The notes beneath the pieces are model-generated. The model was not told the origin of the DNA and ran no database searches. It saw nothing but the letters and a program-made list of their open reading frames with translations. From Bacteroidales bacterium (GTDB lineage: Bacteria; Bacteroidota; Bacteroidia; Bacteroidales; JAAYJT01), in the NCBI GenBank assembly GCA_014860575.1, contig JACZJK010000020.1, positions 1 to 64,000 of the forward strand: 64,000 bases of DNA. Reading direction: 5' to 3'. Of the stretch, positions 3,481 to 49,769 are shown piece after piece. How positions within the stretch are numbered: the first letter of the stretch is position 1; each line of letters begins with the position of its first letter. Both the position numbers and the translations under genes were made by a program.

Positions 3481-5178
3481 ATGAACCACTTAAAAACCAT
3501 CATTTTCTCCGTAGCATTTGTTCTGTGGCTTATTCCTCAGATTTCACTAGCACAGCAATCCCGCCGCTTCGTAGCCGAATGGGAACCCGCCTGGGGCACG
3601 CTGATCCGCTGGCCACTTGGAATCCCCTCAGATCTTGTGGTTGAACTGGCCACAGACGACAGTCTTTATGTGCTTGTGGCCAACCAAACCCAGAAAACAC
3701 AAGCGATCAACACTTTCTCTTCCTGGAGTGTGAACCTTGATCACTGCCAGTTCATCATTGCACCCACCAACTCGCATTGGACGCGCGACTGGGGACCGCA
3801 TTATGTGTTCAATGAAAATGGTGTTGGTGGAATTGCTGATCCCTATTTCTCTGGTTATCCCTGGGTTCCGGGCTGCAATCCGAAATCAGCGCTGGATTTG
3901 GAAGTAGATTATGAACGCCATATCTACGGTGGTTATGCACTGGATAATGCAGTGAATGCCACACTTGCCGAAAACTTTAATTGCCCCCTCATTTCGTTGC
4001 CGATTTTTCTAACAGGCGGCAATGTAATGGTTGATGGTTTTAAAACGGCCGTTGCCACCCAGCAAATGCTGGATGAAAACTTCCCGGGTTTCAACGAGGA
4101 GCAGTTCAGGCAGATGGCTGCAGATAGCCTGGGGATCTCAAATTTCATCATCGTTGACAACCCTGAAGTTCATGGAATACAGCATATTGATTGCTATGCA
4201 AAATTCCTCGACGAAGAAACCATACTTGTTAAAAAAGTTCCCTTATTTCACCCCGAGTTCGCCTGCTGTGAAGCATTGGCAAATCATTTGGGCAATGAAA
4301 CCAACGCTTTTGGCGAGCCTTATGAGATTGTTCGTGTTTTTTGTGCAAACTACAGCGGGAACAATTCGGCGGCCTACACCAATTCTTTTATTCTTAATAA
4401 AAAGGTGCTTGTACCATTGTTTAATATCCCGGAAGATGAGCAAGCACTCCAGGTTTATGAAGAAGCCATGCCTAGCTATGAAGTCATTGGGTTTTCATGG
4501 GGTTCGTGGTATTACTATGATGCATTGCATTGCCGCACAATGGGCATTTTCGACAGATATATGTTGCGTATTGAACACAAACCCTTGAAAGGAGATCAAA
4601 TATTTGCCGGTTTACCTGTGATTAAAACCAGAATTCATGCCTATTCCGATGCAGGTCTTATCAATGAAGGCCTTAAGCTTTACTGGCGCGAACAGGGTAA
4701 CTTTGGCTGGCAGCAGCAGCCCTTGGTTCCTGTAGAAGGCACTGATTCATTAATGGCAATTATTCCAGGTGCGGAAGTTTCAAAAATCTATAATTATTTC
4801 ATTTCCGCCAGCGATTCTTCCGGGAGGAACGAAACTCATCCAATCACGGCCCCGTTTGCCTACCATACTTTTACTTATGCAGACAACACGACAGGCATCC
4901 ATAAAACAGAACTAGCAGCTGAACTTATTATTTCCCCGAACCCATTCACAGAAATAACCCAAATAATCTTTTACAATAGCGATTCTTCCGGCAGATTGAC
5001 GATATGGACTGCGGACGGAAAGAAGGTCAGGGAATGGAACAACCTTCCACCCGGGGAGAATAAGATTAACTGGGACGGAAAAGATAATAAGTCCAATGAC
5101 ATTAAATCAGGAACTTTTATTGTAGTCTATTCGAATGACAAATTCTCAGTTTCAACAAAATGTTTGCTAACTGATTGA
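3481..5178 (+). CDS. secreted agmatine/peptidylarginine deiminase family protein with T9SS tail
   Basis: Protein of 565 residues with a signal peptide (about 1-25, cleaving near SLAQQ). The middle is the Porphyromonas-type peptidylarginine deiminase / agmatine deiminase fold: TRDWGP near 100-105, GGN at 179-181, HID at 235-237 and the catalytic cysteine in ALHC at 351. The family hydrolyses guanidino groups, releasing ammonia and citrulline or carbamoylputrescine. The C-terminal 80 residues (SPNPF...GTFIVVYSNDKF...) look like a T9SS type A sorting domain, so the enzyme is probably exported and surface-attached or released. Residues about 390-470 form an extra domain, beta-rich by appearance. 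Whether it acts on peptide arginine or free agmatine cannot be told from sequence. Confidence 0.85.
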   Translation: MNHLKTIIFSVAFVLWLIPQISLAQQSRRFVAEWEPAWGTLIRWPLGIPSDLVVELATDDSLYVLVANQTQKTQAINTFSSWSVNLDHCQFIIAPTNSHWTRDWGPHYVFNENGVGGIADPYFSGYPWVPGCNPKSALDLEVDYERHIYGGYALDNAVNATLAENFNCPLISLPIFLTGGNVMVDGFKTAVATQQMLDENFPGFNEEQFRQMAADSLGISNFIIVDNPEVHGIQHIDCYAKFLDEETILVKKVPLFHPEFACCEALANHLGNETNAFGEPYEIVRVFCANYSGNNSAAYTNSFILNKKVLVPLFNIPEDEQALQVYEEAMPSYEVIGFSWGSWYYYDALHCRTMGIFDRYMLRIEHKPLKGDQIFAGLPVIKTRIHAYSDAGLINEGLKLYWREQGNFGWQQQPLVPVEGTDSLMAIIPGAEVSKIYNYFISASDSSGRNETHPITAPFAYHTFTYADNTTGIHKTELAAELIISPNPFTEITQIIFYNSDSSGRLTIWTADGKKVREWNNLPPGENKINWDGKDNKSNDIKSGTFIVVYSNDKFSVSTKCLLTD

Positions 5179-5229
5179 TGAAAAAAAGATTCCAGGCTGA
5201 GTCTTAATTTGATTCCCAATTTCTTATTC

Positions 5230-5241
5230 AGGCAATTGCCT
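5230..5241. promoter_or_regulatory. 12-bp perfect palindrome upstream of DUF134 gene
   Basis: AGGCAATTGCCT is self-complementary and lies about 67 bases before the DUF134 promoter. A second small hairpin follows (TTACTTCC at 5253-5260 with GGAGGTAA at 5269-5276). Either could terminate the upstream transcript or bind a regulator; function unknown. Confidence 0.35.
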
Positions 5242-5307
5242 CTATTCTGATTTTACTTCCCTTAAAAAGGAGGTAATCGTAACAATTTTCTAGATAAATG
5301 TTTATTT

Positions 5308-5347
5308 TGAGCAAATGTTCACTACCTTTGCTGCGAACATTTGCTCA
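5308..5347 (+). promoter_or_regulatory. promoter flanked by a perfect 13-bp inverted repeat (putative operator)
   Basis: TGAGCAAATGTTC (5308-5320) and GAACATTTGCTCA (5335-5347) are exact reverse complements separated by 14 bases. The spacer contains TACCTTTG (5323-5330), a good TAnnTTTG -7 element. A dimeric regulator bound here would cover the promoter. Transcription would begin near 5337, so the ATG at 5298 cannot be used and 5355 is the start. The DUF134 protein made directly downstream is the obvious candidate binder (autoregulation), but this is inference. Confidence 0.7.
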
Positions 5348-5354
5348 TTATATT

Positions 5355-5963
5355 ATGTCGCCAAGAAATAAACGCATACGAAAAGTACTAAATCCACCAA
5401 CAATTAAAGGTTTAAAGCCTTACGGCCCTGATGTTGCTGAAGACAAGACTTCTGCTGTGACCCTGCTTTTTGAAGAATATGAAGCACTCAGGCTATGCGA
5501 TTACGATATGTTCAACCACCATCAGGCCTGCGTGATCATGGCAGTTTCAAGACCAACGTTTACCAGGATCTATGCTTCTGCGCGGCAGAAAATCGCCAAA
5601 ACACTGGTTGAAGGAAGCCAGCTTAGCATTGAAGGGGGCAAAGTATATTTCGACAGCGATTGGTATCATTGCAAGCATTGTACCTGCTATTTCAACAATC
5701 CTGAAAAAGAAAAAAGCATTGAAACATGCCCGCTCTGCAAAAGTTTTGATGTTATCAGTTACGAACCACATGACTCCCTGAAATTTGATGAAGAGAAGCG
5801 CTGTGAGGATATTTGCCTCTGCCCTTCATGCGGTTTTGAGCAAGCACACGAATATGGCAAACCCTGTGGAGGTCAATCTTGCCCAAAATGCAATACACGT
5901 ATGACCCGTAAAGGAACACCAGGGAAGAGAAATCCTAAGCACAAAATCCAAAATCCCAAATAG
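5355..5963 (+). CDS. DUF134 (UPF0251) DNA-binding regulator
   Basis: Protein of 202 residues. The N-terminal half is the DUF134 family: basic start MSPRNKRIRKV, LLFEEYEALRL at 37-47 and a sigma-region-4-like helix-turn-helix about 50-85 (QACVIMAVSRPTFTRIYASA). The second half carries cysteine pairs that look like zinc ribbons (C106/C109/C111, C125/C128, then C150, C154, C156, C159, C171, C176, C179), an extension beyond the basic family. Start 5355 is preferred because the promoter -7 box lies at 5323-5330. DUF134 genes are known to sit beside NifX-like and DUF5320 genes, as here. The last residues (KHKIQNPK) are encoded by a spacer repeat word that has run into the gene end. Confidence 0.85.
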   Translation: MSPRNKRIRKVLNPPTIKGLKPYGPDVAEDKTSAVTLLFEEYEALRLCDYDMFNHHQACVIMAVSRPTFTRIYASARQKIAKTLVEGSQLSIEGGKVYFDSDWYHCKHCTCYFNNPEKEKSIETCPLCKSFDVISYEPHDSLKFDEEKRCEDICLCPSCGFEQAHEYGKPCGGQSCPKCNTRMTRKGTPGKRNPKHKIQNPK

Positions 5964-6021: not shown

Positions 6022-6339
6022 ATGAAAGTAGCCATTACATCAACAGGAAACACACTCGAATCTCAAATTGACGAACGCTTTGGCCGTTGTGTCTTTTTCG
6101 TGATATACGACACCGAAACCAGATCCACCGAATTTTTGCCCAATCCGCATAAAGAGGCTGAATCTGGTGCCGGGCCTGCAGCCGTGCAACTGCTTGCTTC
6201 GCGTGGAGTAAGCAAAATTGTGGCTGGTGAGTTCGGGTTAAAGATTAAATCCTTGCTCGACAGTTTGAAGATTCAAATGATCGTGATCAAAAAGCCTGAA
6301 TTAAAGATTCAGGAAGTCATTGATATGTTAAACACTTAA
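6022..6339 (+). CDS. NifX/NafY-type dinitrogenase iron-molybdenum cofactor domain protein
   Basis: Small protein of 105 residues formed of a single FeMo-cofactor-binding type domain (PF02579 family): start MKVAITSTGNTLESQIDERFGR with the conserved D..FGR...F, then GAGPAAVQLLASRGVSKIVAGEFG near 53-75. The family binds or carries Fe-S/metal clusters; free-standing members occur widely in organisms without nitrogenase. No nif genes are in the window. It is the first gene after the DUF134 regulator, 58 bases downstream, in the same direction. A second member lies at 7713. Confidence 0.85.
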   Translation: MKVAITSTGNTLESQIDERFGRCVFFVIYDTETRSTEFLPNPHKEAESGAGPAAVQLLASRGVSKIVAGEFGLKIKSLLDSLKIQMIVIKKPELKIQEVIDMLNT

Positions 6340-6351
6340 AATGAAATGATT

Positions 6352-6534
6352 ATGCCACACATGAATGAAACCGGACCGGAAGGCAAAGGTTCAGGCACGG
6401 GCCGGAGATTGGGAAAATGCAAGGACCACAACGAAGAAGAGGCGCTCAAGAAATTAAGTAAAGGAATGGGTAAAGGAAGGCAAACAGGAGGTAGTGAAGG
6501 CAAAGGGAAACGCCTTGGAAACAGAATGAAATAA
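6352..6534 (+). CDS. DUF5320-like small Gly/Lys-rich protein
   Basis: Protein of 60 residues starting MPHMNETGPEGKGSGTGRR, sharing the pattern Mp...TGPEG.G..TGRR.G with the next gene and with DUF5320 proteins. The tail is rich in Gly and Lys and has a single Cys (LGKCKDH). Start 6352 is chosen over 6346 because the family begins MP. Function unknown; DUF5320 proteins commonly accompany NifX-like and Mrp-like genes. Confidence 0.65.
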   Translation: MPHMNETGPEGKGSGTGRRLGKCKDHNEEEALKKLSKGMGKGRQTGGSEGKGKRLGNRMK

Positions 6535-6564: not shown

Positions 6565-6789
6565 ATGCCTGGATTTGACAAAACAGGGCCTGAAGGCGAA
6601 GGAGCTATGACTGGCCGCCGTATGGGATGTTGTACCGGATATGGTGCAAAACTCAAAAAATCAACTCAATCTGAAAACACGGATGGTCTTTCGGAAAACG
6701 ATAGCCGCAGAGGTTTTGGATTTGGCCGTAGAGGCAGAGGGGGAGGCCGGGGTTTTGGACTTCGAAATCGTTTCAGAGGCGGAGAATAA
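6565..6789 (+). CDS. DUF5320 domain small protein
   Basis: Protein of 74 residues, start MPGFDKTGPEGEGAMTGRR with CC at 23-24, then a Gly/Arg/Phe-rich tail (GFGFGRRGRGGGRGFG) typical of low-complexity, possibly disordered DUF5320 members. A strong purine-rich Shine-Dalgarno-like sequence, AAAAAGGAGG, ends six bases before the ATG, which is unusual in this phylum and supports the start. It appears to be a tandem partner of the preceding mini-gene. Function unknown. Confidence 0.75.
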   Translation: MPGFDKTGPEGEGAMTGRRMGCCTGYGAKLKKSTQSENTDGLSENDSRRGFGFGRRGRGGGRGFGLRNRFRGGE

Positions 6790-7712: not shown

Positions 7713-8084
7713 ATGATAAAAAAAATTGCTATTCCTCTAGAAGACGGCGTATTGTGCCCACATTTCGGCCACTGCCAACAATTCTCGATTATTGAAACCG
7801 ATAGTAACAAAATTACTGCTGAGCATTTATTGACTCCTCCTCCGCATGAACCCGGTTTACTTCCAGCCTGGCTGTCTGAAAAAGGAGTCACTGATGTAAT
7901 TGCAGGCGGCATGGGGCAAAAAGCCATTATGATTTTTAACGATCAGCATATCAATGTTTTTATTGGTGCCCCTATCCGAAATGCAAAAGAACTGGTGAGC
8001 GAATTCCTTGAAAACAAATTGGTGCTTACTGCCAACTATTGCGACCACGAAGGGCATCATGATCACGAAAATTGCAAACACTAG
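7713..8084 (+). CDS. second NifX/NafY-type cofactor-binding domain protein with His-rich tail
   Basis: Protein of 123 residues of the PF02579 family: MIKKIAIPLEDGVLCPHFGHCQQF (the usual FGR is FGH here, with two nearby Cys), GVTDVIAGGMGQKA near 58-71. The C-terminus is a His/Cys-rich tail (CDHEGHHDHENCKH) that could bind zinc, nickel or iron. Its last 26 bases overlap the start of the next gene, implying translational coupling. The tail distinguishes it from the copy at 6022. Confidence 0.85.
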   Translation: MIKKIAIPLEDGVLCPHFGHCQQFSIIETDSNKITAEHLLTPPPHEPGLLPAWLSEKGVTDVIAGGMGQKAIMIFNDQHINVFIGAPIRNAKELVSEFLENKLVLTANYCDHEGHHDHENCKH

Positions 8085-8973: not shown

Positions 8974-9417
8974 ATGGAAAAGATCAAGATAGGAATCATC
9001 ATCTGCGATCGCTATTCAGCCTGTGCCGGAGGAAAATGCTTTCGCTCCCTGAGAAACCGTGAAGGCGCTTTTGCCACGTATATGGATGTTGATGCTGAAA
9101 TTGCCGGCTTCACCACATGCGGTGGCTGCCCTGGTGGAAATATTGAGTATGCACCTGAAGAAATGAAGAAAAACGGAGTAACCCATATTCACTTTGCCAC
9201 CGGGTTTCTGGTAGGTTATCCACCTTGTCCGTATATGGAACATTTTGAGGAGTTTATTAGCGAAAAGTATGGGATGAAGGTCATTTTTGGTACACACCCC
9301 ATTCCCGAGAAGTATTATTTGACACATATGGCACTCAATACATGGAATACGCCTTTTCTTCAAAGAGCCATCGAACCCGTTTTGCCTGGAAAGGAAATCA
9401 GGTTTAGATATGATTAA
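8974..9417 (+). CDS. CGGC domain protein
   Basis: Protein of 147 residues with the signature CGGCPGGN near 50-57, plus CAGGKC near 17-22 and PPCPYME near 89-95. The many cysteines suggest Fe-S or zinc binding; the CGGC family is linked by name and context to metal or redox functions but has no established activity. It overlaps the next gene (ATG 9410) by eight bases, so it is co-translated with the ferredoxin-Mrp ATPases. Confidence 0.85.
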   Translation: MEKIKIGIIICDRYSACAGGKCFRSLRNREGAFATYMDVDAEIAGFTTCGGCPGGNIEYAPEEMKKNGVTHIHFATGFLVGYPPCPYMEHFEEFISEKYGMKVIFGTHPIPEKYYLTHMALNTWNTPFLQRAIEPVLPGKEIRFRYD

Positions 9418-10303
9418 GTCAAAACACCATATTATTGCCATTGCCAGTGGCAAAGGCGGAACCGGAAAAACTTTCGTGGCCACCAATCTTTTCCATGCTT
9501 TGAAAGAAACCGGGGAAAATGTGATGTTGATTGATTGCGATGCCGAAGCGCCCAATGCGCTGGCTTTTTTTGATTCCCGTCAGGCTGATTGCATCGAAGT
9601 TACACAACAGGTTCCGGTAATTGACTCAGCCAAATGCACTTTTTGTGGGAAATGTCATGAATACTGTGCTTACAATGCAATTTTCATCCTGCCGTCTCTT
9701 GAAATTATTAAGGTAATTGAAGATTTGTGCCATGCTTGCGGAGCGTGCCTGGTTGCTTGTAAGTATGATGCCATTACTCAAAAATCAGTTACATTGGGAC
9801 AGGTTTCGTTGAATTCAATAAATGAAAATGTTAACCTGATAGAGGCCCGCACAAAGATTGGAGTGATGACACCCGTACTGGTGATAAAAGCAGCCATCCG
9901 GCAAATTGATCATCGGAATAATATTGTGATACTTGACTCACCACCGGGAACTTCATGCCCTTTTATTCACACGGTAGCTGCAGCCGATTACGTTGTGCTT
10001 GTTACCGAACCTACTCCATTTGGCCTGAGCGACCTGAAAAGAAGCGTAGAAACTTTGAAGCAAATGAACAAACCATTTGGAGTTATTGTGAACCGGGCCG
10101 GGATCGGAAATAATGAAGTTTACGATTACCTGGAATCCGAGGGGATAGAGCTGTTGCTTGAAATTCCTTTCGACAAAGAAATCGCCCGAATCTGTTCCAA
10201 TGGTGGAATGGTTGTGAACCATAATCCTGCACTGAAACATCAGCTTTTAAAACTCGAACAAAAAATTACGGATAAACATGGAATTGGCCATCATCAGCGG
10301 TAA
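9410..10303 (+). CDS. MinD/Mrp-superfamily ATPase with inserted 2x[4Fe-4S] ferredoxin domain (copy 1)
   Basis: Protein of 297 residues. A deviant Walker A (SGKGGTGKT, about 13-21) and the SIMIBI-class motif DSPPGTSCP near 178-186 identify a MinD/Mrp ATPase. Between them lies a ferredoxin insert with two four-cysteine groups (CTFCGKCHEYC and CHACGACLVAC). Such proteins are known in anaerobes and archaea and are thought to assemble or deliver Fe-S/metal clusters. It overlaps the CGGC gene upstream and the paralogue downstream (26 bases). The pair may form a heterodimer, as seen for similar tandem genes. Confidence 0.88.
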   Translation: MIKSKHHIIAIASGKGGTGKTFVATNLFHALKETGENVMLIDCDAEAPNALAFFDSRQADCIEVTQQVPVIDSAKCTFCGKCHEYCAYNAIFILPSLEIIKVIEDLCHACGACLVACKYDAITQKSVTLGQVSLNSINENVNLIEARTKIGVMTPVLVIKAAIRQIDHRNNIVILDSPPGTSCPFIHTVAAADYVVLVTEPTPFGLSDLKRSVETLKQMNKPFGVIVNRAGIGNNEVYDYLESEGIELLLEIPFDKEIARICSNGGMVVNHNPALKHQLLKLEQKITDKHGIGHHQR

Positions 10304-11141
10304 AGGGGGAACGGGTAAATCGAGCATTGCAGCGGCATTTGCTACCATGGGTTCAAATGTAATCCTTGCAGATTGCGATGTGGATGCGGCCAATTTATAT
10401 TTGCTTTTCAACCCTCCACATGACGAAGAAGAGGTTTTTACCGGCAGCTATAAGGCTGTGGTTGATCAGGAAAATTGTACGCTTTGCAGACAATGTATTG
10501 ATTATTGCCGCTTTGATGCCATTGCAATGGTTAACAACCAGATTAACATTTCTGAAGCTTCCTGCGATGGATGTTTTCTGTGTTCCAGAATTTGTCCGGA
10601 ACAAGCCATCGAAATGATTCAGCATGATAAAAGTAGAATGTATACAGGCAGTTTTCGAGATGGCCGTATGGTTTATGGTTGGCTGGCACCCGGTGAAGAA
10701 AACTCAGGCAAGCTGGTTAATCTGATAAGGGAAAAAGTGAAGAAGCTGGCTCAGCAAAACGGATTATCACACATTATCATTGACGGGCCGCCAGGAACTG
10801 GGTGCCCTGTGATTTCAACCATTACAGGAACCGACAAGGTGCTGATCGTTACAGAGCCAGGCATTTCCGGTTTAAGTGATCTAAAGCGCACCGTTGAACT
10901 GGTTCAGGGATTTAAATATCCGGCAATGGTTCTGATCAACAAATACGACCTCAATCCGGAAATGACTTCGCGAATTGAAGTTTTTTGCGATACTGTCTGG
11001 ATTCCCGTTGTTGGTAAACTGGCTTTCGATCCGCAAATGACAGAAGCCATGCTGAATTGTAAAAGTATTGTTGAGTGGAAGCCGAAGTCAGAAACCAGTA
11101 AAGCATTAAACAGGATCTGGAAAACAATTTTAAATTTTTGA
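10278..11141 (+). CDS. MinD/Mrp-superfamily ATPase with inserted 2x[4Fe-4S] ferredoxin domain (copy 2)
   Basis: Protein of 287 residues, paralogue of the previous gene. Walker A is SGKGGTGKS at residues 7-15, the ferredoxin insert has CTLCRQCIDYC and CDGCFLCSRICP, and IDGPPGTGCP follows near 170. The start ATG lies inside the end of copy 1, so the two are translationally coupled and probably made in equal amounts. The likely role is Fe-S or metallocofactor assembly; the actual client is unknown. Confidence 0.88.
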   Translation: MELAIISGKGGTGKSSIAAAFATMGSNVILADCDVDAANLYLLFNPPHDEEEVFTGSYKAVVDQENCTLCRQCIDYCRFDAIAMVNNQINISEASCDGCFLCSRICPEQAIEMIQHDKSRMYTGSFRDGRMVYGWLAPGEENSGKLVNLIREKVKKLAQQNGLSHIIIDGPPGTGCPVISTITGTDKVLIVTEPGISGLSDLKRTVELVQGFKYPAMVLINKYDLNPEMTSRIEVFCDTVWIPVVGKLAFDPQMTEAMLNCKSIVEWKPKSETSKALNRIWKTILNF

Positions 11142-45663: not shown

Positions 45664-45700
45664 CAATGAGGCTATTTCTAAACCAGAAATAGCCTCATTG
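45664..45700. terminator. perfect hairpin after YugP-type peptidase gene
   Basis: CAATGAGGCTATTTCT (45664-45679) pairs exactly with AGAAATAGCCTCATTG (45685-45700) around AAACC. The following T-run is weak (CCATTTTAAAT), but the 16-bp stem and position support a terminator. Confidence 0.7.
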
Positions 45701-49732: not shown

Positions 49733-49769
49733 AAAACGAGGCTGCCCCGCAATGAGGCAGCCTCGTTTT
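49733..49769. terminator. bidirectional intrinsic terminator
   Basis: AAAACGAGGCTGCC (49733-49746) pairs perfectly with GGCAGCCTCGTTTT (49756-49769) around CCGCAATGA. A-rich on the left and T-rich on the right, between convergent genes, so it can stop both strands. Confidence 0.9.

Follow-up and report, generated by a model that had tools for sequence, protein, structure and literature searches.

The perfect inverted repeat surrounding the putative promoter of the DUF134 gene in the 64-kb stretch of DNA analysed here (the window) is likely to be a pair of operators, through which the DUF134 protein would negatively regulate its own synthesis and that of the operon downstream. Such a mechanism would be ordinary. 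What appears to be new is the identity of its parts, a pair of operators for autoregulation by DUF134 together with a candidate code for their recognition. Pfam still gives no function for DUF134, and among open-licence papers we found no title pointing to a binding site for this protein. With a predicted operator and a residue-to-base code, the family becomes directly testable. They also offer a handle on the timing of orange-protein/NifX-type protein production and provide site predictions for relatives, including the copies found on enterobacterial plasmids.

The DUF134 gene and its putative operon

The DUF134 gene (5355-5963, + strand) encodes a protein of 202 amino acids that belongs to family PF02001 by the curated cut-off (71.7 bits, cut-off 27) and combines a sigma-region-4-like helix-turn-helix, whose recognition helix spans about residues 66-86, with a Cys-rich C-terminal part. 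The longest open frame would start at 5298; we discarded this start, which would precede the -7 box, and homologues begin at the MSPR/MPRP position. Further upstream, a long frame at 3481-5178 resembles, by eye, a secreted agmatine/peptidyl-arginine deiminase with what we take to be a sorting tail.

Downstream on the + strand, the DUF134 gene is followed by a gene for a NifX/orange-protein-like (Nitro_FeMo-Co) protein (6022-6339; PF02579, 59.8 bits), two genes for DUF5320 proteins (6346-6534 and 6565-6789; PF17253, 35.8 and 44 bits) and a second NifX/orange-protein-like gene (7713-8084; PF02579, 60 bits). Two genes for MinD/ParA-type ATPases with ferredoxin motifs (9410-10303, with CbiA, ParA and Fer4 matches, and 10278-11141, with ParA, CbiA and Fer4 matches) are probably part of the same transcript. 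The window therefore contains NifX-like and MinD/ferredoxin ATPase genes together, the combination by which an orange-protein (orp) gene cluster was recognised. Similar neighbourhoods recur among 213 DUF134 loci, with the reservation that these loci are of unequal length and include some genes more than once: a NifX-like gene is found close to DUF134 in 162 of them, on the same strand downstream in 145, MinD/ferredoxin ATPases occur in 69 and DUF5320 genes in 68. In addition, DUF134 is fused to a Nitro_FeMo-Co domain in all four of the long proteins scanned (L179, L185, L190 and L191), which were picked for their length. Members of the orange-protein family bind metal-sulfide clusters, according to PMC6345978. 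The fusion of DUF134 to NifX-like domains in some proteins hints at a metal-cluster signal, so that the system may respond to the state of a metal or iron-sulfur cluster.

Two palindromes around the -7 box

The sequence-only reading had described a perfect 13-bp inverted repeat flanking the -7 box of the DUF134 gene, and both elements are present: TGAGCAAATGTTC (5308-5320) forms the exact reverse complement of GAACATTTGCTCA (5335-5347), with 14 bases between the arms, and the -7 box TACCTTTG (5323-5330, + strand) lies in this interval. The box is of the TAnnTTTG type of the Bacteroidota, given in PMC7366714 as the -7 consensus of their primary sigma factor. The original picture of one dimer bound to one 13-bp dyad was not supported, however. 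Each arm alone is a near-palindrome of the form GARCANNTGYTC, so that we read the feature as two operators, and the double site is missing in many of the closer homologues (see below). Operator 1 (TGAGCAAATGTTCA, 5308-5321, no strand assigned) is separated from the -7 box by 1 bp and carries the palindrome that is conserved upstream of DUF134 genes. Operator 2 (CGAACATTTGCTCA, 5334-5347, again strandless) probably covers the predicted transcription start and lies 7 bp ahead of the DUF134 start codon. The two share the form TGARCANNTGYTCA, with centres at 5314.5 and 5340.5, 26 bp apart, and they are the only exact matches to GARCANNTGYTC in the window (0.26 expected; two matches are reached in 4 of 100 shuffles). 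A nearby palindrome, AGGCAATTGCCT, which had been proposed as a second site, was rejected as a second operator, since it occurs in 1 of 310 loci, namely as the window's own copy.

The window contains three places (5308, 45664 and 49733) at which 13 bp are repeated perfectly in inverted orientation around a loop of 0-20 nt, and none of 12 dinucleotide shuffles contains any. The other two, a perfect 16-bp repeat with a 5-nt loop (45664-45700) and a perfect 14-bp repeat with a 9-nt loop (49733-49769), are perhaps intrinsic terminators, as judged by eye from their stems.

Conservation of the palindrome and its register

PF02001 matches were obtained in 19 of 41 near genomes and in 129 of 247 genomes of the order, a set that overlaps with many of the 41. 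From these, we assembled 134 loci, comprising 26 from the near-genome search, 28 further order-level loci and 80 order-level loci taken in list order among the matches listed. After omission of L025, which has no DUF134 domain, and of a second half-domain row of L024, and with L118 contributing two genes, the final set comprised 134 upstream regions from 133 loci. Start codons were set to the ATG nearest the domain start, by which a few sites may be lost.

The sequence-only reading had put the repeat forward as a direct candidate for a DUF134 site and had named its absence upstream of orthologues as grounds for abandoning that idea. The comparison did not refute the proposal: a palindrome with the consensus TGAACATATGTTCA (at most two mismatches, within 130 bp upstream) precedes 107 of the 134 order-level DUF134 genes, against 3.2 expected from shuffles and 2 of 134 in a coding control, leaving 27 regions without one at this threshold. 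That the inverted repeat arose by chance is, given this conservation and the absence of comparable repeats from all 12 shuffles, extremely improbable, and we found no point in its support. With a looser score, a site was assigned in 112 of the 134 loci, and in 70 of these 112 the motif TAnnTTTG begins exactly 1 bp past the palindrome. DUF134 genes thus have a conserved palindromic candidate operator over their own promoter, as is characteristic of autoregulated repressors, the promoter itself being assigned by consensus only.

Pairing of palindromes is less widespread. Of 28 pairs of palindromes found at up to two mismatches, 16 have a spacing of 26 bp. Among the 68 closer homologues (at least 50% identity over 100 residues, window counted), 22, including the window, have a double site at 26 bp with up to three mismatches, as compared to 0.02 under the null model, and 46 lack it by this criterion. 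This distribution also bears on the idea that the repeat works at the RNA level, forming a hairpin that attenuates or terminates transcription. A transcript containing both arms would indeed be strongly folded (-19.9 kcal/mol). However, the -7 box would then sit in the loop, which places the left arm upstream of the likely transcription start; in addition, the pair is absent from the same 46 homologues, and Rfam gave no match at the gathering score in window positions 5000-5700. We therefore regard a role in RNA as very improbable.

The fixed register of operator 1 upstream of the -7 box could also be read in favour of activation, with DUF134 binding its site and, like a sigma-region-4 domain, assisting the polymerase where the promoter has only a poor -33 box. 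The predicted sigma-region-4-like fold is consistent with this idea, and the nearest TTTG upstream of the window's -7 box is 13 bp away, a gap shorter than the usual spacing. By contrast, the probable position of operator 2 over the start site is more usual for repression, as is the inclusion of a -35-like TTGACA in the palindrome of the Bacillota. On balance, activation appears unlikely.

Co-variation between helix residues and operator bases

Comparison of the relatives suggests which DUF134 residues read which DNA letters. In the order-level set (112 sites), 17 loci have G at base 4 in both half-sites, and every one of them encodes Ala or Gly at position 70; this state is found in none of the 89 loci with Thr or Ser70 and is lacking in 5 of the 12 loci with Ala70. 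Base 3 is C in six loci, all with Ser67 (13 Ser67 loci in total), and in none of the 87 with Pro67. Ranked by z in this set, residue 70 leads for base 4, residue 73 leads for base 3 with 67 second, and the top columns for the core bases 6 and 7 (49 and 1) lie outside the helix.

We widened the set by adding the best 80 of 572 named loci, the phyla to which a Spirochaetes record and a Dehalococcoidia record belong (DUF134 matches in 36 of 130 and 22 of 131 genomes, respectively), and nine plasmid loci hand-picked from 189 matching records, which gave 274 regions, 260 of them distinct and long enough. A strict site was defined by a CANNTG core and at least five of seven pairs, a central TA counting half a point. 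Such palindromes were found in 114 of the 260 regions, with 14.1 expected from mononucleotide shuffling, and not in the other 146; by source, they occur in 61 of 132 order-level, 27 of 73 named, 10 of 30 Spirochaetota, 8 of 16 second-phylum and 8 of 9 plasmid regions. The residue-to-base code rests on these 114 sites, in which the letters at bases 1-4 are free beyond palindromicity.

In the widened set, base 2 is G in 179 of 212 half-sites of Arg71 proteins and T in all 16 half-sites associated with Asn, Ser or Ala71, which stem from eight loci, seven of them plasmid-borne; 9 of the 17 loci without Arg71 lack a strict site. G at base 4 accompanies Gly or Ala70 in 41 of 46 half-sites and Gln in 11 of 20, compared with 12 of 122 for Thr and 6 of 36 for Ser. 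C at base 3 accompanies Ser67 in 8 of 20 half-sites as opposed to 4 of 158 for Pro67. The window's protein has Pro67, Thr70 and Arg71, and two of its own four half-sites carry G at base 4 despite Thr70, so the code is to be understood as a tendency. Furthermore, the palindrome of the Bacillota contains a -35-like TTGACA, so that their T at base 2 may be set by the overlapping promoter element.

The ranking of columns depends on the measure. Scaled by shuffles over the 114 sites, base 2 has its top column at 71, base 3 at 67 and base 4 at 70, all at the start of the predicted helix 66-86; by unscaled mutual information, base 2 puts 67 first and 71 falls outside the top seven. When one member was kept per 70% identity cluster (80 clusters), 71, 70 and 67 were the best of 100 columns for bases 2, 4 and 3, with median p values of 1.5e-6, 2.4e-8 and 4.6e-5, respectively. 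With 60% clusters (54), the values were 3.3e-6, 1.2e-7 and 0.024, 67 now ranking fourth for base 3. With 50% clusters (22), 71 dropped to fifth place (p 0.013), 70 to second (0.0021) and 67 out of the top six (1). The co-variation thus fades under strict redundancy removal. On a tree built without the helix columns, the base-4 trait changes four times and residue 70 seven times, providing one and two independent pairs on supported branches, too few for a sign test to reach significance. Taken together, these sequence comparisons reasonably support co-variation for bases 2 and 4, with weaker support for base 3.

Sites in other phyla and on plasmids

DUF134 is present in both bacteria and archaea, as seen in control genomes, and related palindromes with a CATATG core lie ahead of some of the DUF134 genes that we examined outside the phylum. 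The plasmids of Roseburia and Selenomonas carry TTGACATATGTCAA, Treponema has CTGACAAATGTCAG, and Enterobacterales plasmids have pairs resembling TTGGCATATGCCA. Within the Spirochaetota, TGGGCATATGCCCA accompanies a Gly70 helix, TTAGCATATGCTAA the helix sequence SRQTLGN and TGCACATATGTGCA SRSTFSR, a strict site being absent from 20 of the 30 loci examined. The Cloacimonadota site is again TGAACATATGTTCA.

DUF134 matches occur in 189 plasmid records. On Enterobacterales and Vibrionaceae plasmids (L245, L248, L249 and L250), DUF134 is paired with a NifB/NifX gene, with a PaaI thioesterase gene nearby in three of the four loci and Dps and ArsR genes in one.

Sites elsewhere in the genomes

The pattern TGARCAWWTGYTCA occurs at 124 sites in 129 DUF134-positive genomes (11 for the reversed control) and at 42 sites in 118 DUF134-negative genomes (10 for the reversed control). 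The excess in the negative genomes, some of which are incomplete so that DUF134 may have been missed, is what could be expected if another regulator bound the palindrome and DUF134 were merely a conserved member of its regulon. Two genomes in which DUF134 was not detected fit this idea: in G105, an operator lies upstream of a DUF5320 gene (L233, 1053), and in G021, a palindrome is located 111 bp ahead of a MarR-like gene (L232, 1013), which implies that similar sites may serve other regulators. On the other hand, the columns that co-vary best with bases 2, 3 and 4 are mostly residues of the DUF134 recognition helix, and other phyla pair other palindrome flanks with other DUF134 helices. Recognition by a different regulator is accordingly improbable.

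We inspected 20 loci away from known DUF134 matches, chosen among the matches listed with strong ones favoured and with DUF134-positive and DUF134-negative genomes both represented. These loci hold 22 sites, of which 9 fall within open frames, although the short frames of L217 and L227 are perhaps not real genes. Among the matches listed, the 13 sites outside frames precede DUF5320 genes in five cases, one of them the L233 site of G105, pyridine-nucleotide oxidoreductase genes in two, genes for DUF134-like proteins (by eye) in two, and genes for a ferredoxin, an aminotransferase, a MarR-like protein and a protein without Pfam match in one case each. The two oxidoreductase sites (L215, 2625; L226, 5304), from two genomes, lie ahead of pyridine-nucleotide-disulphide oxidoreductase genes near DUF5320 genes. 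The window's own genome has 17 matches to GARCANNTGYTC, compared with 5 for the reversed control. Two of them are the operators described here, and a check of 9 of the other 15 for a regulon placed all nine inside open frames.

Proposed mechanism

Collectively, the conservation of the palindrome, its fixed placement relative to the promoter, the co-variation with the helix and the recurrence of sites ahead of similar kinds of genes elsewhere suggest that DUF134 is probably both the binder of the operator pair and a negative autoregulator. We infer that DUF134 binds as a dimer, that it represses and does not activate, that the operon is transcribed as a unit, and what signal releases the protein. 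In this view, a dimer would dock on TGAACATATGTTCA with one recognition helix, part of the sigma-region-4-like helix-turn-helix, in each half-site. At operator 1, it would occupy the stretch immediately upstream of the -7 box, and at operator 2, it would probably lie over the transcription start, such that bound protein would exclude RNA polymerase. The outcome would be negative autoregulation of DUF134 and of the NifX/DUF5320/MinD-ferredoxin operon, with release perhaps governed by the state of a metal or iron-sulfur cluster. Either a NifX-like partner or the protein's own Cys-rich C-terminal part would act as the sensor. More tentatively, and with some doubt on our part, it is conceivable that DUF134 proteins are phylum-spanning sigma-region-4-like repressors that use a simple code, in which residues 71, 67 and 70 read bases 2, 3 and 4, respectively, on either side of a CATATG core, and employ NifX/orange-protein domains, fused or adjacent, as metal-cluster sensors.

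Comparison with known systems

The AlphaFold2 model of the window's DUF134 protein (mean pLDDT 76, pTM 0.47) predicts helices at residues 39-50, 55-61 and 66-86, with a block pLDDT of 93-97 over residues 41-80 and less certainty elsewhere. A sequence search for a solved structure of this protein yielded an unconvincing best E value of 0.063. In Foldseek, no match reached E 0.001, and the first-ranked one was an unrelated MCM (probability 0.41). The predicted helix-turn-helix superimposes on region 4 of E. coli SigmaE bound to -35 DNA (PDB 2h27, 2h27_D; 0.7 A over 46 columns) with a probability of 1.00 but an E value of 0.11. A Pfam scan of the window's protein gave no Sigma70_r4 match at E 0.001, and one relative, L191, passes the cut-off of this family (24.5 versus 24.1 bits). 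Unlike a sigma factor, DUF134 has palindromic sites and does not constitute a whole sigma protein. The DNA-binding domain of DeoR with its operator (PDB 7bhy) shows a similarly short helix-turn-helix match (0.7 A, 40 columns) at a weak E value of 0.24, and the Pfam scan revealed no sequence link between DeoR and DUF134.

A functional parallel is provided by DVU2106 and the orp operons of Desulfovibrio vulgaris, in which a regulator likewise lies beside orange-protein genes. The main texts of PMC3897727 and PMC6345978, in which the term DUF134 does not occur, describe the NifX-like Orp8, Orp3 and Orp4 with ferredoxin motifs, and MrpORP, and they report that palindromic DVU2106 sites overlap its own promoter, leading to negative feedback. 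The two regulators differ in kind, DVU2106 being, in these texts, a sigma-54 activator, whereas DUF134 is predicted to be a small sigma-region-4-like protein.
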